From Thelephora terrestris (lineage: Eukaryota; Basidiomycota; Agaricomycetes; Thelephorales; Thelephoraceae), in the NCBI GenBank assembly GCA_015956445.1, contig WIUZ02000027.1, forward strand, positions 1 through 64,000: DNA of 64,000 nt. Direction: 5' to 3'. This document shows positions 798-56,959 of the stretch, one piece after another (position 1 is the first letter of the stretch; every line of letters starts with the position of its first letter). A program made the translations under genes and the position numbers. The notes beneath the pieces are model-generated. The model did not search any database and was not told the DNA's origin. It saw only the letters and a program-made list of their open reading frames with translations.

Positions 798-3700
798 TCA
801 GAAGAATTCAAGGCCTAAGGCATCTCTAAATTTTCTGAGTTTGACGACTCCAAGGTTCTTCGTCAGGAGATCCGCGGGATTGTCATCTCCGGGAATGAAA
901 TACACTACCACGCGTCCATCATTGATGACCTCGCGAATATAATGATAGCGGATGTCAATGTGTTTCGACCTCTTTTCAGTGACCAGGTTTGAGGCGATAA
1001 AGATCGAGCCTTGGTTATCTCCGCAGATTGGGATGGCTTTAAGGTCATAGCCGAGCTCCCCCAGTAGGGTATGCATCCAGACTACTTGGCGGCTACAATC
1101 GGAGAGCGCCATGTATTCAGCCTCAGTGGACGACAGCGCAATGGTTCTCTGCGCTCTTGAGGTCCATGAGATGAGCCCTTTTGCCATTCGGACAAAGTAT
1201 CCACTTTGGGATCGTCTCTGAGTGGGGTCTGAAGCCCAGTCTGAGTCGGTACAGGCTGAGATACCTTCCCGTGAATCTCCGTCGTAGGTTAATTGATATT
1301 TGGAAGTCCCGATTAAATAGCGGCAGATATACAGCGCTTTCTCGACGTGCTCTTTTGATGGGTTTGCAGCATATTGCGCAAGTTTGGTGACCGCGAAGGC
1401 GATATCAGGTCGGGTACCCAGCATTAGGTACAGTAAGGAACCGATTATGGTCTGGAACCTGCTTCGTCTTTCCGGGCATGCTACCTCTGTTGATGGAGTC
1501 GGTACATACCCGGCTGGAAGGGGGGTTGGAGCAACTTTTGCATTTTGCATCCCACATCGCTCGAGGACTGTCTGGAGGTAGGCGCATTGATCTATAGAAA
1601 TCTTGCTGCCATGTCGAGTGATCCTCATGCGGAGGAAATCGGTTAGGTCTCCTAGATCCCTAGTTTCCCATATCTTCATGAACTCCCCCTTGAGCTGCTC
1701 CGTAAGCGCTGTGTGGGGTCCGGTAAAAATGGCATCGTCTACATAGATTAACGCAATTACGAATTTTCCATCTTTATCCTGGTAAATGAAGATCCCGGCA
1801 TCTGAGCTCAAGGATTTGAATCCGAGCTTTTCCATGGACCGTTTCAGGGCTCGCCACCACGCGAGCCCGGCTTGTTTCAGTCCGTAGAGGGCACGCTTTA
1901 AGCGGAGAACATGGGTCTCTTTTCCTGGGGCTACGAATCCCTCTGGTTGTTCCATGTAGATCTCCTCGTCGAGTTCGCCGTATAGGTATGCATTTCGAAC
2001 GTCAAGTCCTTTAAGGACCCATCCTCCGAGGGCGGCCATTGCGAATATTAGGCGCACTGTCTCGAATCGGACAACAGGAGAGAACACGGCATCGTAGTCC
2101 ATTCCCTCAACCTGTGAGAAGCCTTTCGCTACTAAGCGGGCTTTCTTGCGACCATCTGGTTTCTGGTCGAATACCCAGCGGTTTTTAATAACCTTGCGGC
2201 CTCGGGGGCGCTCTACCAGGTCGTATACGTTACGCTTGCGAAGAGCTTCCAACTCTTCGTTGCAAGCTGTCCTCCATTCCTCGAGCTCAGCCTGTGGTAG
2301 TGTGGCGATGTCTCGGTATTTCCATTCTTTTGGAGTTTTTCCGTCGGCAGTTGGTGAGACAGCCTTCGAAATTAAGAGGTTTTGGAGTTCTACTCCCCCT
2401 TCCCGGCATAGCCTAGCCAGAAGGGCATCCGTGTCTTCTTCAGGGGTGGTAAATCCGGATGGTTCAACGGATTTCTCGACCTCATCTTCGGACTCTGACG
2501 CCTCTTCTATCTCTTCCTCAGCGGAGGATTCTCTCTCAGGAAGATGTTGCGTGCTAGGTCCGGGAACTGGTACTGCTCCTGAACTTCGCCCGCGCCTAGG
2601 TGCTACGGAGAAATCTCCGACAACCTTCTTCCAATCCTTCATACGCCGGGTAGATTTTAATATTTTTACCGGATGTTCACTTCCGTAAACATTACCAGGC
2701 TTGGTCGGTACTTTCCGCTCACGCTGAGGCCTCCGAGCCTTATCTGGTGACGGAGGCATAATCGTTGGCGGAGCGGGTGGCGCATCCTCAGGGCCGGAAT
2801 CAGAGCTAGAGCTGGGGGTAGGTGATCTCGGCGGCTCCAAACTGGGCGCTCTAGATTGCACCGGCGTTTGCGGCCGTGGTGCGGGCTCAACAGCACGTTC
2901 CTTGCCTTTTGAGGAAGGCCTGGGGGTAGTTTTGGGACGCGCAGAGGGTGTTGCGTCATCCTCCTCTTGTCCTCCTGGAAGGGGACACTGGCAGTCACCG
3001 TCTTTATGACAGTGATGACTGGGTAAGGGTGGCGCAGTAGATTGCAGCCGTGTGTTGCGCCGTGTACTGGCAGTTGGGCACTTTGGAAAGTGCAACTCAT
3101 CGAAGGTGGCTTGTGCGGCGGAGAAGATAATGTTATTTGGTCCGCGCATGAAGATCCATCCTTTTCCTCCCGGGTGGGTCCCTAGGTAGGTCATCAACTC
3201 CGACCGGGGTGCGAGTTTATTTACCCGTACTTCTTCCGGGATGAAGACGTATGCTCCGCAACCGAGGACCCGAAGATGATCAATCGATGGCTTACTTCCA
3301 TTCAATAGCTGGAATGGGGTCTGCCAGTTTAGGCGACGATTCGGCGTTCGATTGTAAACGTGAGTTGCGTGGTCAATGGCGAATTCCCACCAGGATTGAG
3401 GGAGGCAAGCCTGCAATCTCATGGATTCTGCCTTATCCATCAATGTTCGAATGATCCTTTCCGCGCGGCCATTTTGCTGGTGTGCATGCGGGATAGACTG
3501 GAGGATCTCGATTCCCTTTTCCTTGAGCATCGTTGTAAATGTTAGGGACGTGTATTCTCCCCCGGCATCGGACATCCATCGGCGTACTCTCTTCTGGTAC
3601 TTGGTTTCAACCATAGCCAGGAAATGCCTGGTAGCCACGAGTGCAGCGTCCTTAGTGCGCAAATTCATGGTCCAGGCGTGTGAGGTATAGTCGTCATAGA

Positions 3701-5225
3701 AGACGATTGAGTACTTGTATTTGCGATAGGATTCAATGGGGAAGGTCTTCAGGTCCGAGTGGATCAGCTCGAAAGGGGCAGTTGCTCTGGTGCTGGAAGG
3801 GGGAAAGGTTTTATTGGTCATCTTTCCTTGCGCGCATCCAGTACAGAGGTGCTCTCTTGGGATTTCGACATGAGGAAAATCCTTGACATGTTTCCCGGCC
3901 TTTTGGATCACTTCTTTAGAGGGGTGAGCCAGTCGGCGGTGCATGATTTCAAAATCAGCATCGTATATGGTTTCAATTTTGGCAGCAGTAAGTTGCGCCC
4001 CGAGGAGAGTTCTGATGATGTAAATACTATCATCCTCGGTTCGAGGGTGGAAGGTAAGAAACTTGGTTTCTTCTTCGTAGAGTGAAATTTCGCGAGCACT
4101 CCCCCTCGAGAAGAGTCCGCTTTTGAGGAACTGGCCAAGAGATAATAGCCTATGGGATATTTCAGGAACAAAATAGACAGGATTTAGCCTAACAGCCCTT
4201 TCGTCTACGTAGAGGATCACCGTTCCTTTACCGATGATCGTTGTGAAAGTAGTCGCAGTCCTTAGAGGAATGGGCTCGATTGCCTCGTATTCAACAAAAT
4301 CATTCATATCGAAGGTAAAGTGCCGGGATGCACCAGAGTCGAGCATCCACACGGCTTCAGTTTCACTCAGGGCGGACAAGGTCAAACAAGTGTATTCGGA
4401 AGCTACTACTGAAGAATTACGTTTATCTTCAGCTGCTGTGGAGTCGTTAGTATCGTTACTCAACACTTGAATACTTGTTTCATACCTTCCGCCAGACGGG
4501 CCGGCAACCGACACGGGGGATCCAACAACCATCTCATCACCCGACCATCCCAGGCTCACTTCATCCTCGCTTGGCGGGGTACGCGCCTTTTTGCGAGGTC
4601 GAGGATCGACCGTCTGCTCGCAGGAGCGCTCCAGTCGTTTGAGGGTCTCAATCGTGGGCGTGACGCCTAGTCGTGCTGAGAGATCTCTTGCCTTCTGAAC
4701 GGAGGGGTAGAAGGAAGGGGTCCCTGCACCTTCACGATGGACCGGGAGGGAGCGTGTGGGAAAGGCTGCCATAGAGGCGAAGCCGTAGTCGGTGGCTGAC
4801 ATACCGGAGCTAGACGCAACTGGAGGTTGAGGGGGGATGGGAGAGGGTATGGGGGGCTCCTCAGACTGTTGTGCCTGTTGTTGGAACCTTCCTCGGCCTC
4901 CTCTGGTTCCTCGTCGGTTACGTCCGCGTCCGCCTTGGCCCTGGGGCTGATCCCCGCTGTACTGCTGCTGTTGCTGGAAATTGGGGTTTCCAGGAGTGCG
5001 CTGTACATTGGACAGCCTGTGCGCCTGCTGTCTACCTTTGCCGTTGGACGTCTGCTCCCATGCGAGGAGGATTGACCGCCGAAGACCATCCACATCAAGC
5101 TTGGTCAGATCCTCCGTCTGGCAAATTGCCTGTGGAATGTTATTGTATGACGGAGGAAGCTTTGACATGAGCATCATTGCTTTGATGAAAGGGGGGATGA
5201 CGGCGTCTTCCCCGTTGCTCTCAAG
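798..5225 (-). CDS. Copia Gag C-terminus and Pol (protease, integrase, RT, RNase H)
   Basis: The open frame continues straight on from gag after one UGA; its first Met is at 5177, giving 1459 residues. It begins with the end of a UBN2-type Gag, then a Gln-rich and RG-rich stretch (about residues 65-105) where many copia Gags carry a CCHC knuckle. The aspartic protease motif DSGAS is near residue 280. Integrase follows, with an H-H-C-C zinc region, SDAGGEY and an NGRAER-type catalytic Glu. After an acidic Pro-rich linker comes copia reverse transcriptase with the YVDD active site, then RNase H with CTDSDWA and SSTEAEY. All domains look intact. Expression needs readthrough of the UGA or reinitiation. 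Smaller ORFs overlapping it are shadows. Confidence 0.93.
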   Translation of the reverse strand, partial: LESNGEDAVIPPFIKAMMLMSKLPPSYNNIPQAICQTEDLTKLDVDGLRRSILLAWEQTSNGKGRQQAHRLSNVQRTPGNPNFQQQQQYSGDQPQGQGGRGRNRRGTRGGRGRFQQQAQQSEEPPIPSPIPPQPPVASSSGMSATDYGFASMAAFPTRSLPVHREGAGTPSFYPSVQKARDLSARLGVTPTIETLKRLERSCEQTVDPRPRKKARTPPSEDEVSLGWSGDEMVVGSPVSVAGPSGGRYETSIQVLSNDTNDSTAAEDKRNSSVVASEYTCLTLSALSETEAVWMLDSGASRHFTFDMNDFVEYEAIEPIPLRTATTFTTIIGKGTVILYVDERAVRLNPVYFVPEISHRLLSLGQFLKSGLFSRGSAREISLYEEETKFLTFHPRTEDDSIYIIRTLLGAQLTAAKIETIYDADFEIMHRRLAHPSKEVIQKAGKHVKDFPHVEIPREHLCTGCAQGKMTNKTFPPSSTRATAPFELIHSDLKTFPIESYRKYKYSIVFYDDYTSHAWTMNLRTKDAALVATRHFLAMVETKYQKRVRRWMSDAGGEYTSLTFTTMLKEKGIEILQSIPHAHQQNGRAERIIRTLMDKAESMRLQACLPQSWWEFAIDHATHVYNRTPNRRLNWQTPFQLLNGSKPSIDHLRVLGCGAYVFIPEEVRVNKLAPRSELMTYLGTHPGGKGWIFMRGPNNIIFSAAQATFDELHFPKCPTASTRRNTRLQSTAPPLPSHHCHKDGDCQCPLPGGQEEDDATPSARPKTTPRPSSKGKERAVEPAPRPQTPVQSRAPSLEPPRSPTPSSSSDSGPEDAPPAPPTIMPPSPDKARRPQRERKVPTKPGNVYGSEHPVKILKSTRRMKDWKKVVGDFSVAPRRGRSSGAVPVPGPSTQHLPERESSAEEEIEEASESEDEVEKSVEPSGFTTPEEDTDALLARLCREGGVELQNLLISKAVSPTADGKTPKEWKYRDIATLPQAELEEWRTACNEELEALRKRNVYDLVERPRGRKVIKNRWVFDQKPDGRKKARLVAKGFSQVEGMDYDAVFSPVVRFETVRLIFAMAALGGWVLKGLDVRNAYLYGELDEEIYMEQPEGFVAPGKETHVLRLKRALYGLKQAGLAWWRALKRSMEKLGFKSLSSDAGIFIYQDKDGKFVIALIYVDDAIFTGPHTALTEQLKGEFMKIWETRDLGDLTDFLRMRITRHGSKISIDQCAYLQTVLERCGMQNAKVAPTPLPAGYVPTPSTEVACPERRSRFQTIIGSLLYLMLGTRPDIAFAVTKLAQYAANPSKEHVEKALYICRYLIGTSKYQLTYDGDSREGISACTDSDWASDPTQRRSQSGYFVRMAKGLISWTSRAQRTIALSSTEAEYMALSDCSRQVVWMHTLLGELGYDLKAIPICGDNQGSIFIASNLVTEKRSKHIDIRYHYIREVINDGRVVVYFIPGDDNPADLLTKNLGVVKLRKFRDALGLEFF

Positions 5226-6728: not shown

Positions 6729-7640
6729 TCACACTTCCTTCCTTACGGCGTTCCATTTTATTTCATTTCCTCCTTTAGTTTTGGTCGTGGTCTCCGTCGA
6801 GAGCACGGTCGCGCCACCTCCAAGATGCACGCCTCTACGGAACACGTACTCATGCGCTCGCCTAACCTTATTCCTGACAGGCACGTAAATCACGTCACCC
6901 GGTTCCGGTTCATCAAGCCTTAACGTCACGTCTCCATGATACACGGTCCTGTTCCCTGCGGGGCCCTCTATCACTAACGTCACGTCAGACGCGTGTAGGT
7001 GTCGCTGACCTAGATCTTCATCCTGTGCGAAAATCACCATCTCCTTCGACGCCAACAGCCCTCGCGGACGATATCCCGGTTCCGGTAAGTACCTTAGTGT
7101 TACTCGTTGTCTTGGCGTACTGATCCGATTTTGCAGGGGACCATCCTCTTCGTTGTAGATTGCTCCTTCCCCTATGCTTCCATCTTCGGTACGGTCAGAA
7201 GCGGGGTCGTCCTCGCTGTCTTCCCATCGTCCGCGACTCCACTTGCTCCGTTCCTGGTTCCTTGTTCCTGGCGTGGTTACGCGTTCGATCTCATCCCGGA
7301 TCGACACCATCCTGTCTTTCCTTTCTTCGGACGTTGTTCTGGTTCCGGCTCCACTTTGTGAAACCAGTCCATTGTCCTCTGATCCGGACTTATCTTGGTA
7401 AGTTCCTTCTTGTCTTATCACCTCTCTGGGCTTATCGTTTCTCAGGGTCTGATGCTGTTGCCCGTCGTACAGCCTTGTTACGCCATGGCGTCGTACGGCA
7501 TTATCATCCGTAGACTCTTTTGCCGCCGACGACTCTTCGTTGACATCTTCAGGTACGTTATCTGGCATCCTTCTATCATGTTCAACCCTGACCTTATCCC
7601 TTTTAGCTCCTTCTATGTCCTTCTCTTGGCTTCCAAACAA
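6729..7640 (-). CDS. Third ORF of the gypsy-like element, unknown function
   Basis: 303 residues, overlapping the end of the protease ORF by 28 bp in another frame. The first two thirds are highly charged and probably disordered. The last third is more ordered, with a repeated (D)VTL motif and a basic Arg-rich segment near the end. No reverse transcriptase, integrase or RNase H motif is present where pol would be expected. It may be a structural or accessory protein of the element, or a remnant. I do not recognise it. Confidence 0.55.
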   Translation of the reverse strand: MFGSQEKDIEGAKRDKVRVEHDRRMPDNVPEDVNEESSAAKESTDDNAVRRHGVTRLYDGQQHQTLRNDKPREVIRQEGTYQDKSGSEDNGLVSQSGAGTRTTSEERKDRMVSIRDEIERVTTPGTRNQERSKWSRGRWEDSEDDPASDRTEDGSIGEGAIYNEEDGPLQNRISTPRQRVTLRYLPEPGYRPRGLLASKEMVIFAQDEDLGQRHLHASDVTLVIEGPAGNRTVYHGDVTLRLDEPEPGDVIYVPVRNKVRRAHEYVFRRGVHLGGGATVLSTETTTKTKGGNEIKWNAVRKEV

Positions 7641-9640
7641 GCTAAGTGTTTCAAGGTCGTTTTCGGACTTTTTTCTCGTGTCTCACCATTTCTTAGGTTT
7701 CGCCCTGAGTCTTCCTTCTCCTCAATATCTCCTTTATCGACCTCCTCAGGGTCTTCACCTTTACCCTCTTGGGCCGACGCCGGCTTATCAGGCGTGCCTG
7801 TTTCGTGGGGCGGACCTTTCGTGGTAAGTTCAGGTCCTTCTCGGTCGTTTTCTCTACTGATACCATTTATCGCGGATTCATAGCCATCCGTTACATCGGG
7901 CATTGATCCTTCAAGACTATTTCTGCCGGTTACTAGGCCAAATCCGTCTTCCTCTTCCACTTCAAGACTCACGGCACGCCTTCGGGCATCTCGGAAGGTT
8001 AGTCCTTCCTTATCGGGAAGTCCGAGCCTTTGTAAACTAATGACGTCGTCGCCATCAATTTCATTAGCCTTCCGACGTTCCGCCAACAGCTTCGGTGTCA
8101 CGTCATCCATCACTTCATCGTCTTCATCGTCGCCCTCGCTTCCGTCATCCCATTCGTTCGACAGGTCCGGTTCCGGTATTCGGCACGAGTACGCTGCCGC
8201 AGGCCTTTCCTTGTTACGCGTCCTTGTCGTTTCACGCGTCTGCCGTTCCTTGTGGCGGTACCTTCCTATATACCTTAGATATTCTTCTCCTTGAGCTTTC
8301 TCTGTCTGGTAACTAGTCCGGCTTGTCCATCGTAGCTTAGTCGTCCGAGTTCTTCTTTTCATGCCTCCGGGTCCTTTCCGCCTTCGGCTAGTAGGTACAT
8401 TGTTCGGTAATTCTTGTTCGGGTTCGTCGTCCGGTATGTCCAGCGTTTGCGAGGGCTCCGCTTCTCCGCTGTCTCGCTCATCTTCTAAATTAGGCTCTTC
8501 CCTGTAGTCATCAATGTCAAACTCCTCTGTTTCTTCCAAGGTGTTGTCATCGCATAGCCTTCTCCATCGCACTTCATCATTCTGCTTCTCTTGTTGCATC
8601 ATTTGCTGAAACTCCTCCCAGTCTTGATCTGTCACTCCCCTTAGCACCTTTTGTATCAGTGTTTCATGTAGAACCGACCGAACAGTAGACTCCTCAATTT
8701 GAGTATTTAACTCTGCCTGATTTTCTGGGTGTTCCTGTCCCTGGGCTTCTTCTTCTTCTGCTGCTCCAACTTCATACTCGTCCATTCCTTGTTCTTCTTC
8801 CTTGTCAGACTCTTCTACCTCTCGTCTCTGTCCTGGTTCCGGTGGATCCATTTCTCCAATTGCCACAGGTGAGTAGGGAAAATCTCTCCCTCTATCTTCT
8901 AGGCCCTGGGCTCCAATATGAGCTACGTTGCTTCCTATGTCGTCATCCTCTTCTTCTTCATCCGTTTCTGGTACTTCCTGTGCTTCCCTAATGGCATAGA
9001 CTTCAGCCGGACTTTGCTTCCGTTCTGTCTGTGGTGTATTGGTCCCTTGCCTTTTTAGGTTAGAGATAGGGGTTATGTTGTGCCACCCGTTCTTGGTCCG
9101 GAATGCTATTCTTGTTCCCTCATTGTCTTCAATGAGATGAGCCCGATTCCTACGTCCCCAGGGTCTTCCCAAGAGTAGCTGAAATCCGACTCGAGGATTG
9201 ACATACAAGTTTCCCCTGGTTAAGATTGGTCCATCATCAGTTTCAATCGTTATTTCAGCCATTGGCACCATTCCTGCACATCTGGTTAGGTTACCATCAA
9301 CTGACAATAATTGAATTTGGTGCGGTTCAGCGTCTAACCAAGGTATTCCTGCCTTTTCTGCCAAGTTCTGACTGATGACGTTGAGCTGGGATCCACTGTC
9401 AAATATTCCAGTCATCCATGCTCTTCCTATCCTCACTGGTACTTTCAACAAGTCTCCCTTCTCCGTTGTTATCTGGGGTTCTTTTACCTGTTCACTGAGG
9501 TAAGCTTCTTCTTCCTCCTCCTCTCCCTCTTCTTCCTCTGACATTTCTGCATCAGATGGGTCTGAGTGATCGTCCTCGTAAATCCCAACAAAACCTGTTT
9601 TGTCCTGAGCTGGGGCCAAAGCCTCACGCTGTGGTCTCAT
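7613..9640 (-). CDS. Retropepsin-containing ORF of the gypsy-like element
   Basis: About 675 residues from the ATG at 9640; the frame is open back to 9655 and is the same frame as gag, separated from it by one TGA. Early in the protein is a retropepsin domain: a flap-like start, DSGSQ active site near residue 80, and a GRPWGRRNR motif where the fungal gypsy protease domain ends. The rest is acidic, with Glu/Asp runs and Arg-rich patches, and contains no RT palm motif. The likely role is processing of the Gag polyprotein. Expression could be by UGA readthrough or by reinitiation at the ATG 16 bp after the gag stop. Confidence 0.75.
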   Translation of the reverse strand: MRPQREALAPAQDKTGFVGIYEDDHSDPSDAEMSEEEEGEEEEEEAYLSEQVKEPQITTEKGDLLKVPVRIGRAWMTGIFDSGSQLNVISQNLAEKAGIPWLDAEPHQIQLLSVDGNLTRCAGMVPMAEITIETDDGPILTRGNLYVNPRVGFQLLLGRPWGRRNRAHLIEDNEGTRIAFRTKNGWHNITPISNLKRQGTNTPQTERKQSPAEVYAIREAQEVPETDEEEEDDDIGSNVAHIGAQGLEDRGRDFPYSPVAIGEMDPPEPGQRREVEESDKEEEQGMDEYEVGAAEEEEAQGQEHPENQAELNTQIEESTVRSVLHETLIQKVLRGVTDQDWEEFQQMMQQEKQNDEVRWRRLCDDNTLEETEEFDIDDYREEPNLEDERDSGEAEPSQTLDIPDDEPEQELPNNVPTSRRRKGPGGMKRRTRTTKLRWTSRTSYQTEKAQGEEYLRYIGRYRHKERQTRETTRTRNKERPAAAYSCRIPEPDLSNEWDDGSEGDDEDDEVMDDVTPKLLAERRKANEIDGDDVISLQRLGLPDKEGLTFRDARRRAVSLEVEEEDGFGLVTGRNSLEGSMPDVTDGYESAINGISRENDREGPELTTKGPPHETGTPDKPASAQEGKGEDPEEVDKGDIEEKEDSGRNLRNGETREKSPKTTLKHLACLEAKRRT

Positions 9641-9655
9641 GGCGCTCACTAGGTT

Positions 9656-11735: not shown

Positions 11736-13103
11736 TGTCGGGTTCGTGGGGAGTGTAGTGTTATTTCCTATACAGAAGATAACTAACACCCTTTGGTTTG
11801 CTTAGAGACTAGAGTATAGAAACCAAGCAGGCTGGTTGATTAGTCAATGAACTCGACTAACAACTCCACAGGGTAGAGCGGGGTTCCTCTTTCCGGCTCT
11901 TGGTCCTGATGAGTTCGCTGGGGATCTACTAGTAGTGTGTCCCTCAGTAATTCTTCTTAGGGAATCAGTAATGTTATCACTCAGGAGCTCTGTACACTCT
12001 GATTAGACACCTAACTTCACCGTGGGAATCTATGTTCTGATAGGAATGGGGTTCCTGACTCAAGGATGGGCCTTGAGGCTGTGCTTGAGGCTGTGTAATA
12101 GTCCTGTCCTTAGGCTGTACCTAAAGCTGTGTTGAGGCTGTGTCGTGAAGCTAAACCAAATAAGGAAGGTGTACGCTTACACCTGAGGCTGTGCTTGATA
12201 TGTCGTAAAAGTGACAAGATATGTCGTAGAGCTTATAGAGGTATGTCAGATACTTTTAAACTTGCTACAGATGACGCCTAGTGCGTCAAACAAATATAAC
12301 TTCAAATAAACTTGGGATAAAATGATATGTCGTAGAATATGTCGGAGACCTTTGTGGTACCTGCTAAATCTGGCTGTTACCTAGACAAACACTCTTCTGA
12401 AGTGGAGGGCTATCTGCCTAAAGTATCAGACTTCAGCAATACAGACACCAAAAACTCCAACGTCACAAGTGTGCTAGGCTTGATCAGTACTTCTGACTTA
12501 GTGCTTCTTCACACAGAGGATGAGGCTGAAAGTGGTATGTGATTACTCAAAATCACTCAACCAATCAGTCCTAAGGGGTAGGGGGTAGATGAAAAGTTGT
12601 GGGGGAAAACTAGCAAAGAGAGCCTCAGTCTAGGTGAAGACTGAGCTGTTGGTGATTCTCCCTGAGTAGTGGGTGAGCTGCTGTCCTGGTGGGGTGAACT
12701 GATTGTCCCTTAGAAGTGTGGTTGAGGTCTATATATACTAATTTACAGGAGAATGTCCCAGAACATTCCAACGCATTCCACATTATTCCATAACATTCCA
12801 TCATGTTCCATGGCATTCCGTCTTGTTCCTTTGGGTGACCAGTGGTCACATCTGTGACATTCCGTCACCTTCTAGAATGTTCCATTACCTTCTAATACGT
12901 TCCGGTGTTCTCCAGTAGGCTCCAAGGAATTCCATGATTTTCCATGATTTTCCAGGCTTATCTTATCTCTTATCTTATCTATTGTCCTTATCTTATCAAA
13001 TGAATAAACAATTATCCATAAAATATTCCTGCTTGGGCTGTAAGTACACTATTAATTGTGCGAAAAATAGTAAATAAATCATGATTAATCCAGGGGTCCG
13101 ACA
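11736..13103 (-). repeat. 5' LTR of the gypsy-like element (1368 bp)
   Basis: The plus strand starts TGTCGG and ends CCGACA, a perfect 6-bp terminal inverted repeat, with gag and a primer binding site directly inside the left edge. No second copy is in the window, so the right boundary rests on the inverted repeat alone. Inside are direct repeats of GAGGCTGTG (about 12070-12190), repeats of ATATGTCGTA (about 12195-12345), and a long TTCCA array (12748-12960). Confidence 0.65.
12729..12960 (-). promoter_or_regulatory. LTR promoter: TATA box next to a phased TTCCA / heat-shock-element array
   Basis: Read leftwards, TTCCA (TGGAA on the minus strand) recurs mostly every 10 bp from 12960 to 12748, followed by a TATATATA at about 12729-12738. 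At 12870-12882 the plus strand reads TTCtaGAAtgTTC, a perfect three-unit heat shock element, and GAAcaTTC occurs at 12761-12768. The order array, TATA, gag fits a retroelement promoter. Control by heat shock factor is inference from the motif. Confidence 0.6.
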
Positions 13104-15310
13104 CCGGTACTTGCCTAATTGGGAATACTTGCTGATGGGCCATCAGACCCAACATTTCGGTATTTCTCCATTCGGCTGAGGTGCCATCTGGGTGGTTCTG
13201 GGGGCAAAGCCACTTTTGCATTGGTAGATACGGACCTGCACTATTGTAATAGCTCCTCAGTTATCTGACCTCCACTTTTGTATTGACTGGACAGCAGCTA
13301 TTGTGGTGACCCAGAAGCCAACGAAGAGGCAGAACCAGAGGTGATGGTTAACATTGAGGCCATTGATGACAACGAGTACCACAGCCCTGCTTTTTGTAAA
13401 TGTCTTGCTGCATTAGCTTTTAATGTCCATAGTTGTTGTAGTTACTACAGGATGTGCGCAATAAATTGACTTTTTTCCCAAACTCCTAAACATGAACTGA
13501 AGTGAACCAAACAACTGAAATTCAAGCTGTCACTTTGGGCACTTTTGCCGCCTTTGAGGTCACTTCAACGAGCTTGAAAGACGGAACCACATGGCGCACA
13601 CACTTGCAAAGCGGCATGAACCTTTGGCCACTTTTCAACTTTTGATCACTTGAAAGTTGATTAAAGTGATTCTCGTTTCCATGATGGAGAGTGTATTGCT
13701 GTAGGTGGTCTGGACCCTGAGTGTGACTTCATCTGGACGTTCTGTAATGGAGTATACAGTCTCTATTATGCTTGACACAAGCTTCACCTCCAGAGATGCA
13801 AACACTGGCATCAGATTGCGTGCTGTACAAGTGCCTCGTAGACGTGTAAACCATCACTACCCCCTCCACTTCCTTTCGAAAATGAGGTCTATCCCATGCC
13901 TGGGGGAACTGGTGAGTAACACAATATCATCATATCGCCCTCTCCCTCACGCTTGGACTCGGCGGGAGGTTACCTGCCAAAAACTCGAGACAAGGACTTG
14001 AGACATGCAGATATGTTGTTGACCACTATTTGTACAAGCCGGTTTATAAGTTTCCTCCTTGAGATCAGAGGGCAGAACCTTTCTTTCATCGCATCCACCA
14101 CCATCTCTGGTGCCATCTCCCTAAACCCACCAGTCGCAGCTGACATAGAGTGACCATGTCACAACAGTGAGTCTTGCCGTTTATGTCTAGTGGAGAACCG
14201 GGTGTAACCACCTACATCACAGGGGTCTTGACTGGCGGAGCAGTTCGTGTCCATTCGCGTTCAAACAGTTCGGCGCCTGACGCTAATATAACTTCTCTTT
14301 CTATCTACACAAAACTACACGGCCAGTTGTATTCTATTGTACCTTTGTACGTAGTCTGTATGATTGGGCCTGAAATGATGTGGGGCAAAGAAAAGGGTGA
14401 GTGCTGAGCGGGGCGAGGATTACTTATATTGAATATAATTATGAGAAATTAGGATGAGCCCCTAGTAGCAAATTATTTAATGGATCAATTATTTGAACTG
14501 CTTGTGATGGACCAGAAGGCCCAGGGAAACCCCAGATTTATTTCTTTTTTAGTTCCTTGGCTTAGAGTTTTGTGGATGCGCCCCCAAGTGACTGTCAGGG
14601 GCTACAAGCGCGTCCAATTTGGATGCACGCGTGCATCCAAATACAGGACTGACCTTTGCTTGTGGCGCTTGTATGTGCGTAGATATTGATGCCAGTTTTC
14701 CTGATGGTCTGCTGATCGAGGCATATCCCATACAAGGGCTTGTAACCCGTTATAATGTGTTGTAAGCCATTACAAGCTTCCCAGATGACCTTAGCGCCGT
14801 TCTATGTAATGCGTTATAAGGCCCTACCACTTTCATAGGGCTATATATTCGATTGTCGGACTTTTCCCAATTTGCTGATGCTGGCTCCAAAAGGAGAAAG
14901 CTTGAGGACACATTGACAAGCGAGGATCCTCAACCATCTCCGTGACAGATTTTTCTCGAGGATTGCAGCCCATTTTGATGGCGTCGACCTGTGGAATGTT
15001 TTTTTTGCATTTCTGCGACGGTTAGCCTCGTAGGTGGTGCACCTGTAAAGCAGTCGGAAACTCGCACGAAATTCCCACTTTCTTATCAAAATTCTGATTC
15101 CGTGTGGACAGAGTAATGGCACACGCTGTGAAAAATCCCGCACCTTGGATTCAGACAGAAATCACAGATTCAGTTGGTGTACTACTAGGGCACTGAATTC
15201 GGGCGTTTACTTGAAAGGCGACATAAATCACCTTGATTTCAGTCGCTACAATATATTCACAGGGCGTGAGGATTACAGAAGCCGGTCGTGGGCCATGCCG
15301 CTTGCCGGCG
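13104..15310. other. No supported gene, 2.2 kb
   Basis: Only short ORFs without recognisable domains or consistent splice signals are present. A short acidic open stretch around 13290-13450 on the plus strand could be a gene remnant. The one clear structure is the palindrome at 14618-14641. Confidence 0.5.
14618..14641. repeat. Perfect 24-bp palindrome
   Basis: The half-site TTTGGATGCACG is followed directly by its exact reverse complement, with no spacer. An outer inverted repeat TACAAGCGC (14603-14611) / GCGCTTGTA (14665-14673) brackets it asymmetrically. Confidence 0.85.
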
Positions 15311-18265
15311 CTAGCGATTATCTTTTACTACAGTAGAGCGAATAGACGTGAGCTGGCCGCTGCTTCCAGCTTGTCCAACATTGGGTCGAAGTAAACCTTC
15401 AAGCAAGTTAACCACGGAAAGAGATTGGACCAATTTAGCATCGGCCATGTGTAGACATATCTCTGCGGTGTTCAGGAGTCGTTCATCTTTGACCACCTGA
15501 TTTAAAACGATTAAGTACTGACAGGCGCTTCGGAGTAAATCCCACACACCTCGCGCAGCCAAGAAGTGGTTTCGCGCAAGGCAAACACAGGATCCGTCGC
15601 AACTCCTACGGCGTCAGGCACGTCCAGCCACATCATGAATTTTTCCCTCAGGAAGTGACGGAGAGTGGGAATTAGAGAGGCGAAAAGTTCTCTGGACTCT
15701 GCGAGGTGGATATGCCAGGATGCGTAAGCATACTTGAGTGCGGTTTGCCTATGCGGGAACTCGACCTCGGTGTCCATGGCACGTTGAAGCGGCGAGAGGC
15801 CACCCTCCAAGGCCTCATTCATTAGGTTTAGACAGCGAAGGGCAATCAGGGAGTGGAACTTCCCTGGGGCGATGTGGAACCTCTCGTCCGCGCAACGGGT
15901 TGGAGAAGTGAGTAAGTCAGAAAGTAGTTTGTGAAATGGGTGGACAGGCTGATCGGGACCTTGGAGTTTCAAAAGCGGCTGAATTGATTCAAGGATGGTC
16001 ATAACTTCTCTGACCTCTAAGGAGATGAGATCGGCGATTGTAGATGGAGGGAGAGGGTTGGTGACGAGGACCACACCGGCAAGTACCAAACGCACAGCGT
16101 CGTCGTCTTCGGCATCGTTGTATTTAAAAGACGCCTGGAAGATCGATGTACACAGGCGATCAAGACTCAACCCCTTATGGACGCCCTCCATTGTTCCTTC
16201 ATAGACCGTGTCGTCTGGGGAGTGCTCGATGATGGTGAACTGTTTGTCGGGTGATTCCGGCTCGCGGCCCAAAAACTTTACAGTGGCTACTGCGAATACA
16301 AAGAGACCGGCTGCCCTGGCACACAACAGGTCTAGCTGCGCAGCCGTCGGCCAGTCGGTCGGTCCAATCCGGGCAGCGGATAGCTCATGCTCAAGGAAAA
16401 TTCGGATATCGCTATCGCTATCGACAACATGTGATGCGATGCCACGAGGGGCGAAGGCGTCCGCTACACCACTTAGGAGCGGAAAGTGGAGGCTGGTTGA
16501 AATATGGGGTTTTGGCCGGCTCGTCACGAGGAACTTGGTCTTCGGCATCTCCTTAACCCAAAGTCCCATAGCAGAGAGGATGCCAGATTGCGATTCGTCA
16601 TCTCCCCACTCGTCCAATGCGTCAACGACAATGACAGCTGGAACATCCGCTGACTTGAGCGGTTTGACAATCAGCTTCTCCACCTGTTCGGACGGCGACT
16701 CAAACACAACATCTGGATTGGACCGGAGGAGGGAAACAAGAGTTGAACGGATCTCAGGGTGCTGCCGCGCGAGTTGAATGGCGAGGGAGGGGAAGAGAAG
16801 GCGGGGGTGGTGTTCGTCGAATTTGAGTGAACAAAAGAAAGATGATATCAGCGGGCCATCGGCATTGCATCGTTCCGTGACCGCCTGTGCGATCGCGGAC
16901 TTCCCTTCTCCGGCAGGCCCATTGAGCCAAAATATTGGTGGCTTGGTGGAGTCATTGACCCACGACTCGATCGCTTCCAAGATGGTCCCCCGTGTACCCT
17001 TGAGGCAGCCCCAAAAATCATCTTGGTATCCAGCACCTTGAGCGGAGGGATGTAGGTCTAATTGAAGAAACTCGACTACCAAGCCATTAGGATGTGTGGA
17101 ACAAAAAATAGAAATAAGTCTGACCAGGATCAACAATGGCCTCCTCAGACATAGCGCCATCCTCCTGCATCGGGATCCCAGTGGTGACAGGAGAAGGCGT
17201 CTGTTCATGAGAACTGACACTGTCCATAGCGGAGGCGGCCTCGATTGACATATCGTCGAGTCTTGACGAGCTTGGGGGATTCAATGGGCCGTGAGATGAT
17301 TGCACTCCATCAGAACTGTCGCCACCGCCCGTGGCTGTCTGATCCGTAGGGCGGCCATCTGAGAAGAACTCTGGGTCTGTCGTGGACAGATGACTGATAC
17401 GGTTCTTTCCTTTCTCACTGGAAGGATTGGTCCAACTGGAGTATCTGGAATCGAAAGCGTCTCTGAGACGCTTGGCTTGGTCAAGATAAGGCTGCTTTTC
17501 AGACTGACGGGTGGAAGCACACAATGGGTGCATAGACAAGTTTCCATCAGGCACGAATTCACATGAGCGGGTAGCAACTCACAATGTCCATCGCCCTCCA
17601 CTCTTGTCCAAGAATCTTCCTGATCTTGCCGGGGCGCATCTTGGGGTTTGCGGCAGACAGTGCTGGCTTACGCTCTCGAGAGAAGATCATGAACCCGTTC
17701 ATGGGACGTTTTGGTGTCCCGTCTGCCTTGAAAGATTGGGCAGGGGCGTCCTTGACATCTGTGAAGCAAAATCTGTTGGATGAAGCAAGAGTTGAGAGGT
17801 AGAGAAACCGGAAACTGACCACCTGAGTGAGCCGTTTCGAGCCTGGGCGAGGAGGATACGGGAGTGCTGGAAACGAGAGAAGGGGTAACGAGAGTAGTAG
17901 AATCGACGTTCCAGCCACTCATTGATGGATCGACTGAGGGGAAACGGGCCGGGTGAAAGTAGACTCCGGCAGAAGGCAAGGCTGTCGTGCCGACATCGTG
18001 GGGAGGTGAACCGGGGGGGTGAGGGTGGCTAGGGGTGTGGTACGGGCCTTCGCTGAGACTTAAGGGAACTGGCGTGTGTGGATCATAATCGAAAGGAAGT
18101 ACATATCCGTGTGCAACGTAATCTGACTCTGAGCAAAGACAACTTGGGGGTAAGTACAGAAGGCGCAAATAAACATGTCGTACCGATACTTCGCTGTTCA
18201 GGGGTGCTGACATGAGGATAATCTGTGAAGTCGTAGGACGGGTGGGTCCAACGGTGCGATGCCAT
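15311..18265 (-). CDS. HMG-box / NACHT fusion protein (six exons)
   Basis: Exons on the minus strand are 18265-18184, 18128-17823, 17758-17583, 17503-17125, 17075-15550 and 15496-15311. They total 2655 bp, 884 residues, with frame kept across every junction. Residues about 145-210 form an HMG box (KRPMNGFMIFSRER, split by intron 3), giving sequence-specific DNA binding and probably nuclear location. A Ser/Pro-rich linker follows. From about 340 there is a STAND-type NACHT NTPase: P-loop GPAGEGKS (367-374), Walker B VIVVDALDE (about 462-470), sensor-like LVTSRPK (about 497). The C-terminus is helical, with no WD40, ankyrin or TPR repeats visible. Intron 4 (49 bp, CTAAT branch) joins the two halves. 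NACHT proteins in fungi act in non-self recognition and cell death; the combined role is inference. Two separate genes is the alternative, but no good independent NACHT start was seen. Confidence 0.75.
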
Positions 18266-18836: not shown

Positions 18837-21140
18837 CTAGTCACAAATCGGAGAGGGAAGAGATACGCTCTGTTCGCATGTTTGCTGCCTGAGGCCGGTC
18901 TCCGTATTTGCAGAAGCGATACGCAAAGCTTGCGATCTTGATGCGGTGAGGCACGATCGGAAGCAAAAAAGCGGCATCTTCGTGGCATTTGCTTCCTCGC
19001 CGACGATGGCGATCAATACATGGAATAGCTCCTCGACCATGCTCGACAGATTGGGCCCCTCGTATGGTATGCTTCATGAACGATTACTACGGAGAAGTGA
19101 TGCAACGGTTGGAACCGATCCAGGATGGAGGCGAAGATTATGTTGGGATCTAGGATGACGGGAGTCATTTAGAGGATGAACAGGGCTTGGTCGTAGCATA
19201 GTTCGCGAAGCATGGAGTCCCTGTGTGGAAGGAGTTGCCCGCGAAACCGTTCCGTACCCACAGGCCTTTCCGAATCTGGGCAATCATCGACAGGACTAGT
19301 CCGAGCGCATCAAAACTATGTTTGAATGGCATAGAATAAGACACACCTCTGAATGTGAAGTCGATGATCGTCAGAATGGCCTGCTCGCTTGCATTCCTCA
19401 AACAGATGTCCCTCACGTTCCCTAACCCAACCGTTTGCAAATTTTCTTCCGTCAAAATATCCACATGCATGAACAACTCTGCCAACAGCCACTGTGATGA
19501 GTGGTGGAAGCTAACCCATCTAGTACGTCGAATTCCACAGTCAAGTAGGATGCCGTGCATGATCGTGCGTATTGCCGCCACGAGATCCGTCGGAAACGGG
19601 AGGAAAAGGCGTCTCCGTACACTTTGTTGACCAGAGAGAGCGAGAGGATAACGTTGAACACAGGTATCCACGCGTCAGCTTGATATTCTACATGGTTGGT
19701 GGCTGCCCGTTTGTTTGGGTTGCTGAACATAAACAGTTGGCAGGTCTTCGAGGATAACTGGACGAACTCCCTTTTATGAGCCAGGAGTTCCTGAACGGGC
19801 TTGTTTTGACTGAGGTGCCTGAGATCCGAGAATACGGGAATGAACCTTTTCGAGTTGAATGGGAAGGCGTCTGGGTCAATCTCTGCTGTCGGGTCGGTTG
19901 GGTAGATGATTTGAATTTGGTTGGTGAAAAAGGAGGTGATAACGGAGAGGAGCCGGCTGACGATGTTAGGTTGGCGGAAATGTAGAGCGAAATTAGGGTA
20001 TTATGAAGAGCTGGAGGGCAAATTATTTGATGAATGTTTCGGCTTCGCGGTCCACGAGGAGGCAGGAGTCAATAATCCGGTGGTAAACTTTGGCGAAATG
20101 TGAAGCTGAGGCCTCTATTTTTAGCCGTGGTCTCTCTGAGGAGTATATAGACGAGACTCACCAACTTCCGGTGTGATACAGGAACACGTAGTCCAGCCCC
20201 ACGGGAGAATTCACCTCTAACAGTGCTCTTTGGGCTTCGGGATTGGGGTTTGGGGCGCTCGGTTTCCTCGGGCTAATAGTTAACTGGTGATGATCTCAAG
20301 CTTGTGTCCGTTCTGAGGCAACTTCGCATCAGCCCCAAAACCCATTCAATTATGTATCACGACCGATATCCGCTCGCGGAAGGTGTCGTACGCTCGGGGG
20401 ACTGTCACTCCAAGGTCGATTTGCGAAAAGGTGCGCGCGGTTTCAAGAAGTCGAGCAAAATTTGCGCGCATGTCGACTCGGACCTCCCTTTCCCGCCCGC
20501 CAATCACGACGGTGGTATCGATGGCTTCTTCGCGAGTTCGGAAGTGATCACGCCGTCGAAGGAGTGTTTCTCGTCGCCCCAAAGGACAAAACAGGATTGA
20601 CCTTTCATCATAGGATCCGCAGAAGGCAGAAGTCTGAGGTCTGGGGCGATAAGTTTTGGGTTTTCGCTCGAGCTGTCCGCTGGAGGGTGGCGCTAACAAC
20701 CGCTCGGTAGCCGCCAAGCTTCAGTATCTCCGCAATCACATACAGCTGTCATCCCAGGCGTAATCCCTGGAAATCGGAGTGTATCAAGACGGCAGTTGAT
20801 TGGAGGTGAGAATACTCACCCACACCGAACATAGCATTCACCTTTTCTAAAGATGTTGCCACACGCTCTACCCGGGGTTGGTTTCCTCTCCTTCCCTGCT
20901 CCTCCAAAACCTAACCGGTGCTGCAATTCGTGGAGAGATATGTGAAATGGGAGATTGGCGCTCGAATTCGACACGAAGTGGTTGGCGTGCGAGCCCCAGA
21001 ACGCGCCATACAACTCGGTGATGATCTCAGTGCGGGTGAGAGGGGTAAATTCGTATTTCCGTGAGTTCTTGTTGAAGGATGGCGCGGTCGCGGCCGAGCC
21101 AAGCAGATGCAGAGTGGCGTGAGTTGAGAAAAGACATTTG
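18837..21140 (-). pseudogene. Decayed UBR1-type E3 ubiquitin ligase copy
   Basis: Fragments in shifting frames read, in order, like the N-terminal part of a fungal UBR1 (N-recognin). They are a segment before the UBR box (about 21126-20816, with ELYGAFWG and RACGNIFRKGEC), a UBR zinc piece CDCGDTEAW (about 20744-20710), a stretch containing LDYVFLYHTG (about 20200), DSCLLVDREAETFIK followed by a stop (about 20030), then conserved helical segments at 19879-19070 and VEELFHVLIAIVGEEANATKMPL near 19040-18970. Stops, frameshifts and internal deletions separate them. It looks like a duplicated, decayed partial gene rather than the working UBR1 locus. Confidence 0.7.
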
Positions 21141-21622: not shown

Positions 21623-24600
21623 ATGGATCCCCCCGAATCCGACCCCCCCCCGGGCACTTGCATGTGTGCAAAGTGCACGCGGTACTCGCGTGTTGGCAAG
21701 GTCGTTTCAAGAAGGACATGGTATCGGCACAACCCCGGTGGAAAAAAAGCCATGTATGGCGGCCTCACGGACGAACAGACACAAGCAACCGATAGGATAG
21801 CTGGGATCTGGCAGGAAGTCCCTAGAAGAAGGGCACGGAAGCGACGTCGTCTGGAAATTGAAGAATTCGAAGTTACCCCGCATACATCTAACCGAGCCAC
21901 GGGGTCGGGCTCAGTAAGTGCGCCCACACTGCATATATGCGCCTCAAAAGTAGGATACTCATAAAACAATACATATAGAGCGTTCAGAACCGTATGCAAG
22001 TTACTCCTGGGCGTGAAACGTCCCCAGAAATCCCCCCTCCCGTCCCTACGCCCGAACCCGGGCGTGTGAGCCATCCCACCCAAAATACTGACCGAGACGC
22101 CCCTCCTTCTCCCCCCTCACTTGATGAAGATCTTCCAGTCCCTCCTGAGCGCTCTGAGACAGAGGATCTCGGTGATAATCGATCTGGAATCGAAGATTCT
22201 GGCCACCGTGAAGAAGATCTCCTGGGTGACCTTGGTCCTCCTCCTTTGGACTCGGACAACGACACCGGCTCTTCTTCTGGGTCTGACTCTGGAGAACCTC
22301 CTCCTTCTGATTCCGACTCTGAAGAACCTCCTCCTGCCGATAACAGCAACGATGAACCTCCTCCTGTTGATCTGACCAACAACGAACCTCCTCCTGCCGA
22401 TCAGAGCAACGATGCTGACCCTGATATCACTCTGGAAAATATGAAACTAAACGCTAGATTTGTCCAGATGGTTCGCGAAGCAACCTTGGAGGCTCAGTTC
22501 AGTCCGGCTGAACTTCGCTCGTTCCAGGATCCTCGAGGAACTCAGTTTGCTCCGTCGGATGACCCCGACCTTCGTCTTTCCATGAAATTCTTTATGTCGA
22601 CTCTGGACCACCTTACGTCTCAGAGAGCGTACGCCGACGCTTGCGACGACATTCTGGAACGCTATCCTGATTCGGGAATTCTCTCGTACGATCAGGTTAA
22701 ACGAAGGGTCTCTAACCTATCTGGCGTCCTTACCTGGAAAGATGACATGTGCATAGACTCTTGTGCGGCCTTTACTGGACCTTTTGCGCTTCTGGAGGAC
22801 TGTCCTCGCTGTCACAAACCTCGCTATGACCAGGAGAAGCTGAGGACCTCTAACGGCAAAACCAAGGTACCCCGGAAGGTCTTTACAACATTCCCGGTCG
22901 GCCCACAACTCCAGGCTCGCTGGGGTAATCCCGAGATGGCCCAGCGGATGTTCTATCGTCGGGATAAGACGGCAGATCTATTGCGGAAGCGGGCTCAGGG
23001 CGAGGACTTCGTATACGACGATATCTTCTGTGGCTCGGACTACTTGGACACCGCAGAAAATGGAGAAATCAAGGACTACGACTCGGTGGTAATGCTATCT
23101 ATAGACGGCGCCCAGCTTTACCGGAACAAAAAATCCGATTGCTGGATTTATATCTGGATACTTCTGGATCTCGCTCCTGACGACCGTTACAAGATTCATA
23201 ACATCCTTCCTGGCGGCATCATCCCCGGTCCAAAAAACCCCAAGCACCTCGATTCCTTTCTATTCCCGGGTCTGGCACATGCTTCTGCCCTCCAGAAGGA
23301 AGGGATGCGTGTCTGGGACGGCTTCAACAACGTGGCCGTCGCTTCTTTTATCTTCCTGCTTCTAATTCTTACGGACGCCGTCGCTTCAGCTGAAGTGAGT
23401 GGCTCTGTTGGCCATCACGGCAGGAAGGGCTGCAGGGTTTTTTGTGGCCTCGTTGGCCGCAACAAACCCGGTGGACCTCACTACTATCCTGTCTTACTGC
23501 GGCCTTTGGACTCGGATATCGAAGGTTCTAATCATGCCGACTTCGATATCAATGGACTACCCGAAGCACACACTTTGTCGTATCGAAACGACCTCAATAA
23601 AGTCCTCGGATCACCTAGCGAAGCTGAATACCGGAGGCGGCGGCTCGAGACCGGGATCAGGAAGGCGAGTTTATTTGATGGGATTCCTCGGATCCTTGGT
23701 TTGCCTTCGTGTTTCCCTGGCGACATAATGCACCAACCTGTCATCAATCTGACGGGTCTTATGTTTGAGCTATGGTGTGAGAAGGAGAACTGTCGAAAGG
23801 GAGATAAATCTCAGGACGTCTGGGACTGGGCTGTCTTGAAAGGCAACGTTTGGAAGGCTCATGGCAGGGCAGTTGCAGCCGCTGCTCCCTACTTCCCCCG
23901 CTCTTACGACCGTACGCCTCGAAATCCGGCCAAAAAGCTCTCGAGTGGTTACAAAGCTTGGGAGCTACTCCTCTATTTCTATGGACTTGGACCCGGACTG
24001 TTCTATAAAATCCTCCCGGAGGCGTACTACAAACATTACTGCAAGCTCGTTATCGGGATCCGGATTATGTACCAGCGCGCGATCTCCCCGGAGCAACTCA
24101 AACTCGCGTATCAATCCATTCTCGAGTGGGTAATTGAATTTGAGCTTCTTTACTATCGCAGGAAGACGGAACGCCTCCATTTCGTCTGACAATGCGTTCA
24201 CTCCCTCGTTCATCTTGTCCCAGAAACCATTCGCATTGGACCACCCTCTCTGTCGGCTCAATGGACGATGGAACGCGTTATCGGCGTGTTCGGCTCGCTG
24301 ATAAAGCAGCCATCAAACCCCTTTGAAAACCTCGCGGAACAGGCAAAAAAAGTGGCGGAAGTTAATGCAATTGTTGCCATGTGGCCATCTCTCGAACGGG
24401 TCAAGAAGGATCCCAGAGGCTCCATTGATATCGGCGCCGGCTATATGTTGCTGGGGCCAAAGGACACACGCGCTTACCGCCTTTCCAACAATGAAAAAAT
24501 GGCGCTCAATGCTTTCTATTCCAGTCTAACGGACGTCCCAAGGGGATCTATCTACCGATGGGCGAGACTCCGCGTTCCCACAGGCCAGATCGCGCGGTCT

Positions 24601-28408: not shown

Positions 28409-30116
28409 TTACAGCACACTGGCGACAAGCATATCACCCGTCGATCCTGCATAAGGATCTCGGATGCGTGTGCGAATTGTCCGTCCCTCAAAAGTGATCA
28501 CCGGCCTGTGGACAAGATATCCAAATCCCCCATTCGCCTCTTCCTTCTTCACCGCAGATTCCATTAGCCGCATACTAAAATCCTCCGTGCGACTATAAAC
28601 ATCCACGCAGAACACCAACCGAAACTTCCGTGCACTGTGCATCTCGCGAAACGCCTTCAGTTGCCATGGGAAGGAGTATTCCAGAAAACTAGCGCTGTTG
28701 CGGAAGCAGCAGCTGGTTCCACAGAATAGACAAGGTTCCCAATCCCCAAAGTTGTTGTCGCGGTAGATGATTGTGACATCGAGCATTCCAGGAAAGGCGA
28801 CGGTGGAGAGCAAATTTTTCAGAAACCCGGCTGACGATCTCCCCGCGTGGGTGATCGACTCTGCCGTTGTCTCGAACGTCCGAAGGGTCTTGATCTGTGA
28901 CAAATCGAAACGCAGGATTTTCGCTACAAATCGACCCGATGAGTCCACCTCCTTTCCTTCGGAAATAAATCTGACCGTATGGATCGGTTGGGTACAACCT
29001 CAACGTATCTAGGGTCTTTGCGCACCGTTTCAAAAGAAGTGGCAGGCACTTCACCCCGAAGAGGTCCATTCGACGAAACCGAAGTCCCCCAAAAAGCGTG
29101 ACCATATCCTTCACAATCTGCTCCCTCGTGAATAATATGAGCGTCAATCGTCCTTCCAATGGGGGCGAGGAGAGAGGAACAAGTGTTGTGTCTGCTATAT
29201 CCTCTTTTTCATCCCTGAGGAAAGGGTAGTGAAGCTTGAGGTCTTGGAGGTTCGGAAAGAGTCTGATGAAGTACACGATCTGTCGGGAGGAGCCGAACGG
29301 CCGCCTGAGGGCAAGGAACCGAAGTGTCGGGGAGAGATGTCCAAAGTATCGCTGAAGATGCGGCATAAAGTTGCGCAGTGCAAGGTCATCTATTCCAAGT
29401 TCCTGGAGGTTCTTGAGCGCGGAAAAGTAACGTAGGTTGTGTATATCCAGCCATTCGGGAGTGAACCAGACATGGAGACACTTTATGCGAATCCGGAATC
29501 GTTTGACAAGTGGGAGCAGACCGAGCTCGTACTTTTTTCCGAGCGGCCCGGGCCACCAGTACTTTTTTCCGGGTGGCCCGGGCCATAAGAACTCGGTCAA
29601 GGAGTCGTCGTCCGTTGTGAGGGAATAGTGAAGGTGACGGACGGTAGCCAAGTACCACGACCGACAAGTCAGGGAGCATACTATGAGAGTGCGTTTGTCG
29701 TCAACAAAGTAGGAGAGGATCTCCTCCACAAGTTCCTGTGGTAGCTTGTTGACCGGACCCAAAGTGGCATCTGAGCTGAAAAAGCTGAAAAATGACTTGA
29801 TTCCGGCTTTCGTTCGACACCAAAGTCGGTCGGGACGCAATTGGTTTTCTACAGCAGCGTTAGTTAACACGATAAAGGAGAGATACAAGGTGGATAAGCA
29901 CTTATTAGCATGAGCATGTATCTCCGGTGTCGTTGTTATTGTGAGTTCTTGCTGAGGGAGGATGCAGCTGCGGCGGATCTCTTCAAAGTGGCGTAAGCCG
30001 GGAGAAGGAGCTCGAGCTGGAGTAGATAGGGGGAGATGGTGATGGTTATCAATCGACTTGCGTGAATGTGGTAAGCGGGGTCTCAATCTCATGAATCGAT
30101 CAGGACACAGCGGCAT
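28409..30116 (-). CDS. F-box protein, mushroom-expanded family (copy 1)
   Basis: Exons 30116-28976 and 28923-28409, separated by a 52-bp intron at the position conserved in all family members here (after TDPYG); 551 residues as drawn. The F-box is at residues about 121-165 (NKLPQELVEEILSYF, then CSLTCRSWYLATV). A leucine-rich, LRR-like region ends with the family tail (VITFEGRTIRTR, ASVL). The predicted role is substrate adaptor of an SCF ubiquitin ligase. The N-terminus is uncertain. The paralogs have a 31-bp first exon and a 38-39 bp intron; the same splice here would create TAA, so this copy needs an upstream start with the intron read through, or is broken. A 30-bp in-frame tandem duplication (29529-29588) repeats a WPGP-GKKY motif. 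Confidence 0.75.
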
Positions 30117-30418
30117 AACTTATCTTGTCAGAACAGCTTCGGGAATTTGAACATTTCAACCGCAAGAACTTCAAGGAGAGCACCGGTTCATGTCCATGCG
30201 CGAGCAGAGTACACCCTCTCAGTCAGATGCGCCGCTGATTAATGGCACCCCCTGCATTGTCGATGCGTCCAATCTTCGACGGATGGGCTGGGCGAAGGTG
30301 GAGACCGGCGCGGTCCACTGGGTACAGATTTAAAGCCATCCCACTCGCACACATGGACGAGGAATAATCAATGTATATTTTGTACAATTCAGATAAGAAT
30401 ACATCGGGACCTAGGTCA
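30117..30418. other. Intergenic, nothing recognised
   Basis: About 300 bp between the start of F-box copy 1 and the stop of the sulfurtransferase gene. No ORF or motif supported. Confidence 0.4.
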
Positions 30419-56760: not shown

Positions 56761-56959
56761 CAGCAATGGGGCCCGGCGCTCGATCTGGCCTCCTTTTCCG
56801 TGCCCCCACGTCTTTTCATTTCTCCCCGCCAGAGCTCCTTCTCTCCAACTTTAGCTTCTCAACCCAGATAAGCTTCCCTCAGCTGCAGTTGAAAAGGATT
56901 GCCGCAACTGCATCCTCAGAAAGAATCCACGGTAACGACAACGCCGGTGACCAAGACAT

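Follow-up and report, generated by a model that had tools for sequence, protein, structure and literature searches.

Gene structure and domain layout

Contig C20 of the Thelephora terrestris genome (40.6 Mb) is 174,362 bp long, and the window analysed here covers its first 64 kb. On its minus strand, at 15311..18265, lies what is very likely a single fused gene, in which an HMG box and a NACHT NTPase share one frame of 884 residues. A first-pass annotation, made from the letters of this stretch, had drawn the gene with six exons and five short introns, and we reproduced this anatomy, with all introns running from GT to AG. Exon 1 (18184..18265) opens with the ATG at 18265, a putative start, and is followed by exon 2 (17823..18128), by exon 3 (17583..17758), which carries the first part of the HMG box, and by exon 4 (17125..17503), which is itself chimeric in our reading: it holds the end of the box, a tail predicted to be mostly disordered and, at its 3' terminus, a remnant of the NACHT family. 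Exon 5 (15550..17075) encodes the NACHT/NPHP3_N NTPase and then a helical region, and exon 6 (15311..15496) the short C-terminal end, the frame closing at 15311. The introns measure 55 bp (intron 1, 18183-18129), 64 bp (intron 2, 17822-17759), 79 bp (intron 3, 17582-17504, which splits the HMG box), 49 bp (intron 4, 17124-17076, donor GTCAGA, which joins the HMG exon to the NACHT exon) and 53 bp (intron 5, 15549-15497).

Both domains proved to be full, as had been claimed. The HMG box (17432..17714, residues 145-212) matches Pfam HMG_box over profile positions 1-68 of 69 (E 3.1e-17, 63.2 bits). On the NACHT side, the 884-residue frame matches NPHP3_N at residues 348-501 (E 2.1e-25) and NACHT at 364-503 (E 8e-7; 29.5 bits, against a cut-off of 26.7), and both the P-loop GPAGEGKS (16897..16920, residues 367-374) and the Walker B region VIVVDALDE (16609..16635, residues 462-470) are intact, the combination that defines a STAND/NACHT NTPase.

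The architecture is already deposited. The T. terrestris protein BJ322DRAFT_1114717 (P0001, 789 aa) is the product of the same gene, is listed with both domains and corresponds to residues 96-884 of our frame, with an identical junction between HMG and NACHT. It begins at Met96, inside exon 2, and places the donor of intron 2 3 nt further on, which adds one Gly. Exon 1, absent from the deposited model, and the early part of exon 2 are putative, because that model starts at Met96.

Origin and state of the HMG box

The paralog of the HMG half is P0120 (BJ322DRAFT_1024303), encoded on contig C10 and 64-72% identical over the box, with an intron at the same position inside the box as intron 3. As this paralog and the common intron position indicate, the fused domain stems from a conserved protein of the cell that exists in its own right. 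P0120 and its agaricomycete kin resemble the chimera in the HMG box and in the position of the intron within it; they differ in having no NACHT and in sequence conservation, since 55 columns do not vary among 15 agaricomycete relatives and the fusion departs from 18 of them, 11 within the box, 3 ahead of it and 4 behind it. When each of these 15 proteins was left out in turn, it broke 0-4 invariant columns. P0146, which has the look of an animal-type SOX protein, was dropped before the count, and the 15 relatives had been gathered with the fusion itself as query, so that bias, if any, favours the fusion. The residues lost include the basic tail YPDYVYRRRPN; in SOX and MATA boxes the basic tail contacts DNA.

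The box is nevertheless not a wreck, since its HMG_box score (63.2 bits) does not fall below that of P0120 (61.0 bits); with the HMG_box_2 profile the fusion scores 36.7 and P0120 49.1. It matched 66 distinct PDB sequences, the best of them SRY and HMGB1. In a predicted structure the three-helix HMG fold is kept, with helices at P0001 residues 56-71, 77-90 and 93-113 and a pLDDT of 94-98 over this block, in a model that is otherwise poor (mean pLDDT 48.8); in a second model, built on an alignment dominated by NACHT sequences, the box is poorly predicted. Compared with P0120, the HMG half gives a dN of 0.342 and a dS of 1.11, and the box alone 0.151 and 1.02 (Nei-Gojobori).

A NACHT NTPase without detectable sensor repeats

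The genome contains at least 91 scored NACHT matches. The closest own-genome paralog of the NACHT half among the matches listed is L017 (61% identity), against which dN is 0.284 and dS 1.10 (Nei-Gojobori). Both halves of the chimera are free of stops, with dN below dS, and purifying selection has probably acted on both over much of their history; the comparison also spans the time before the fusion and, with dS near 1.1, leaves the fusion undated. Stops were found inside 11 of the at least 75 other NACHT matches listed.

In the second structural model, the one from the alignment dominated by NACHT sequences, the NACHT half is predicted well, and the PDB entries that match best are CED-4, MalT and a STAND-TPR protein; plant NLRs follow lower down. 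A linker of about 135 residues, predicted to be mostly disordered, separates it from the HMG box. Pfam found no repeat family after NACHT, and a tblastn search with 15 relatives, including NACHT-WD40 proteins such as P0035, gave no downstream WD40 match in positions 1-30000 of the window, so that a WD40 sensor downstream of NACHT was discarded. Before NACHT, Pfam recovered HMG families only and no N-terminal effector or signalling domain from the recognized fungal classes (HeLo, Goodbye, sesB, PNP and others). Relative to a complete tripartite fungal NLR, the chimera thus appears to lack both C-terminal WD40/ANK/TPR repeats and an N-terminal domain of known class. The NLR-like NACHT-WD40 proteins of T. 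ganbajun (for example P0030 and P0035) share its NPHP3_N/NACHT core at 45-46% identity; they differ in their N-terminal region and in the WD40-type repeats that follow NACHT, whereas the chimera has an N-terminal HMG box and no such repeats were found in it.

An ancestral intron as the probable joint of the two halves

In the NACHT paralogs of this genome an exon ending near QNCKLI is followed by an intron, a 7-nt microexon (for example GATGCAG), a short intron and the NACHT exon, the donor of the short intron being GTCAG in 14 of the 29 loci compared. We examined 53 of the at least 75 other NACHT matches listed, L017 among them. The arrangement AG|7-nt microexon|GT is present in all 28 paralogs from L018 to L045 and in all 20 further ones from L055 to L074 (18 recognized through a pattern and two, L068 and L072, by eye), and four more paralogs show the same layout by eye. 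The chimera reads GTT|GATCCTG|GTCAGA at this point: the 7-mer (17125..17131) and the donor are retained, and no AG acceptor stands in front. L017, with GCT|GGTCCAG|GTCAGC, has lost its acceptor likewise, and these two are the sole exceptions among the paralogs examined. NACHT sequences of the L017/P0005 type, 54-61% identical to the fusion, also have a similar 'DPG' tail before the intron; the difference lies in the upstream partner, an HMG box in the chimera and a WD40-like frame in L017. The frame in L017 is the WD40-like stretch of a NACHT-WD40-NACHT tandem and stops within the same intron.

Deposited proteins reflect this layout. Five of ten relatives (P0030, P0034, P0035, P0046 and P0068, all from T. 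ganbajun) read LI-D[AS]-AD at the joint, which is what the microexon predicts, and in P0030 and P0035 this reading fits the microexon and intron of the T. terrestris paralogs. Among the other five, the joint is made differently in T. ganbajun P0045 and P0064 and in T. terrestris P0074, P0042 has a later start and P0077 is uninformative at this point.

On these splice signals and proteins, intron 4 is the ancestral intron of the Thelephora NACHT family, and, with the acceptor lost, the microexon would now form the 3' terminus of the HMG exon. That intron 4 is an ad hoc product of gene modelling was rejected, since a corresponding intron runs across the NACHT family. The in-frame fusion proposed in the first-pass annotation is thereby borne out, its 49-bp joining intron matching the family intron and the deposited protein having the same joint.

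That annotation had also named two separate mRNAs as a finding that would undo the fusion. Under this reading there are two overlapping units: one yields an HMG mRNA with intron 4 unspliced, whose frame closes at 17087, and the other a NACHT mRNA driven by a promoter within exon 4, with its start between Met273 and Met306; the deposited fusion is then a mere choice of gene model. Several features speak for it. Retention of intron 4 brings an in-frame TAA at 17087-17089 into the frame and would give an HMG-only protein of about 326 residues; in-frame Mets are present in exon 4 at residues 273, 281, 300 and 306, from which a separate NACHT mRNA is possible; and the upstream WD40 frame of L017 ends inside the same intron. 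Against these, the HMG reading frame meets no stop codon until it has entered intron 4, and its end would then fall within an intron that belongs to the NACHT family; the donor and the microexon remnant have been retained, and the deposited model joins the two halves. A NACHT start within its own exon was ruled out, the first Met of exon 5 being residue 484, which follows the P-loop (367) as well as Walker B (462-470). We therefore regard two separate units as quite improbable. The ancestral intron, the lost acceptor, the lack of a NACHT-exon start before the P-loop and the deposited model all point to a single fused gene, very likely on sequence grounds. More precisely, and with good though not full confidence, we read the locus as a genuine chimera, in which an HMG duplicate has become continuous with a NACHT microexon remnant and splicing of intron 4 joins both in frame.

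Two side observations concern the family at large. Judged by its splice signals and in part by the T. ganbajun proteins, the 7-nt microexon appears unusually short and uniform, in 48 of 48 sampled paralogs with L017 set aside. At L046 (C59:968000-977500, minus strand), another NACHT-WD40-NACHT tandem carries two TAG codons in its first NACHT, and its WD40-like frame meets a stop within the conserved intron that precedes the second NACHT; acceptor loss may thus have given a second fusion there.

The breakpoint in exon 4

Homology with P0120 extends to residue 268; from the sequence comparisons, the breakpoint would lie no earlier than about residue 268 and no later than about residues 296-310. 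When the last 20 residues of exon 4 (about 296-315) were compared with the pre-intron tails of nine NACHT relatives, they were the best of 66,959 20-mers of the window; with the first 14 columns alone, 60 of 66,959 windows were as good, the site itself counted. The tail of L017 by itself gave 9 windows as good with 20 columns and 1,005 with the first 14 (of 66,959, again counting the site). The relatives' tails had been chosen partly through a pattern covering the last six columns, residues on which the match mostly rests, and the figures for the first 14 columns are therefore the fairer ones. An earlier test with 11 tails, in which none of 40,000 random 20-mers from the window was as good and one of 1,071 G|GT sites was, the site itself, is superseded by the nine-tail version, from which two tails were dropped and in which the columns are shown apart.

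At the DNA level, an end-anchored global alignment of the last 75 nt with L017 scored above all of 2000 shuffles, and a search of 17060-17330 across the genome returned no match but itself. A strict profile of 20 columns, built from the tails that precede the intron, did not recover exon 4 from the window, and when exon 4 was aligned with L017 as DNA, locally and without anchoring, 720 of 1000 shuffles were as good; the breakpoint consequently stays loose.

Distribution and related systems

The first-pass annotation had named the same architecture in related species as something that would support the fusion, and the protein searches did not supply it. HMG and NACHT occurred together only in P0001 among the best 120 of 198 matches to the full-length protein, among the 26 matches to the HMG region of the full-length candidates and among the 11 matches to the HMG part alone. 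So far the chimera thus appears, among the matches listed, in one species, T. terrestris. The closest NACHT relatives among those matches, P0002 and P0003 (71-72% identity), come from a metagenome and were compared here as proteins. The protein searches returned no HMG relative from T. ganbajun, and the absence of the fusion there is for this reason weak evidence.

The annotation also knew of no described HMG-NACHT protein. This stands for the literature, where none is described among the papers listed, and falls for the databases, which already hold the protein. We found no paper on T. terrestris with NACHT and none that combines NLR, integrated domain and HMG-box. HMG, transcription factors and DNA-binding are not mentioned in the main text of PMC9815663, nor in the available portion of PMC4986451, and the available text of PMC12258605 does not mention HMG.

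Some parallels exist outside the Thelephorales. In the NLRs of Sordariales, according to the available text of PMC12258605, foreign domains are common and mostly confined to one to three proteins, a range that covers 92% of 185 non-canonical domains. These proteins resemble the chimera in that a foreign domain is fused to a NACHT protein; they differ in belonging to another phylum and in that their common additions are zinc finger, SPRY and kinase domains, mostly C-terminal. Among plant NLRs, the sections available of PMC4599002 report that Rx1 can contact and distort DNA and that RRS1-R carries a WRKY domain. What is shared here is the notion that an immune NTPase may touch DNA directly, whereas the architecture is another one and contact is made through a WRKY domain or by Rx1 itself.

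Possible function of the chimera

How the gene may have arisen and how its product may work can be sketched as follows. An HMG-box gene conserved in agaricomycetes would have been duplicated, the copy would have lost its stop codon and a NACHT gene the upstream acceptor of its microexon, and the last HMG exon would have run on into what remained of that microexon. Removal of the ancestral 49-bp intron would then join HMG exon and NACHT exon in frame, as the anatomy and the deposited model suggest. The resulting protein would consist of a folded HMG box, a disordered linker and a STAND NTPase. In what seems its most likely manner of working, nucleotide-driven self-assembly of NACHT would cluster the attached HMG boxes, either on chromatin, with DNA binding that is altered and probably less specific, or as bait for something that targets the conserved parent factor. 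Retention of intron 4 would yield the HMG-only protein instead.

The first-pass annotation had read the gene as a receptor that acts directly on genes. Its premise, one gene, is upheld by the anatomy and the deposited model; action on genes is a possibility, weakened by the divergence of the HMG box at otherwise invariant positions, and it is not favoured either by the search for sensor repeats, which found none, or by the relatives listed, none of which shares the architecture. A specific version, that of a STAND switch without sensor, whose assembly gathers HMG boxes on chromatin and in which retention of intron 4 toggles between HMG-only and NACHT-coupled forms, is put forward here as a tentative and rather doubtful proposal. 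If this is true, loss of a microexon acceptor would have produced a member of the NACHT class whose action on genes is direct.

The bait reading amounts to an integrated decoy, the HMG box having been copied from P0120 and being a poor DNA binder, yet still bound or modified by an antagonist. The box is indeed a diverged duplicate of a conserved factor that kept its fold and lost its basic tail, and integrated decoys have been proposed for Sordariales NLRs in the available text of PMC12258605. The position of the HMG domain argues otherwise, being N-terminal, where fungal NLRs carry effectors, as does its general profile score, which is not lowered (63.2 bits versus 61.0 for P0120). Moreover, no partner NLR and no sensor were identified, and we know of no antagonist of HMG factors. 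On balance a decoy seems unlikely.

Whatever its product does, the chimera offers a view of how such joints form, which is seldom visible in fungal NLRs. The likely route is that a microexon without acceptor comes to end any upstream coding exon, WD40-like in L017 and HMG here, and that the next intron can still be spliced in frame. If the chimera is active, a nucleotide-gated assembly module would have been linked in this way to a DNA-binding fold.

Genomic surroundings

Duplicated sequence lies on both sides of the gene. Upstream, a segment of about 1.5 kb (18970..20471) is shared with C7:1003647-1005219, at 91% and 84% in two pieces, and among the matches listed a further copy lies at 826554-827622 of C7 (83-91% by piece over the two copies); the longest frame of this flank (19452-20000) has no Pfam match. 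Just downstream, a repeat of about 1 kb (13669..14706) has at least two copies, 94% identical, on C60 and C56, and another repeat (12000-13106) has at least 30 further matches. A repeat-rich stretch of this kind would be a likely setting for duplicates to become joined.

Such surroundings also suit a plainer account, in which the chimera is a by-product of duplication that drifts without selected function and heads to decay. Its restriction to one species among the matches listed, the lack of sensor repeats and the diverged HMG box agree with drift as well. What it leaves unexplained is a frame of 884 codons free of stops, when 11 of the at least 75 other NACHT matches listed contain internal ones, a dN well below dS on both halves and an intact P-loop and Walker B; we consider drift somewhat unlikely. 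Like the decoy, it is compatible with one fused gene.

The first 25 kb of the window are crowded with other elements: a copia-type polyprotein at 798-5225, a weak aspartyl-protease match at 7613-9655 and a tnp2-type transposase at 21979-24189. Further on, F-box frames recognized by Pfam lie at 28689-30119 and 32105-33700, and two more frames (54370-55485 and 56951-57931) resemble the first of these by eye, forming a local family with members in both orientations.
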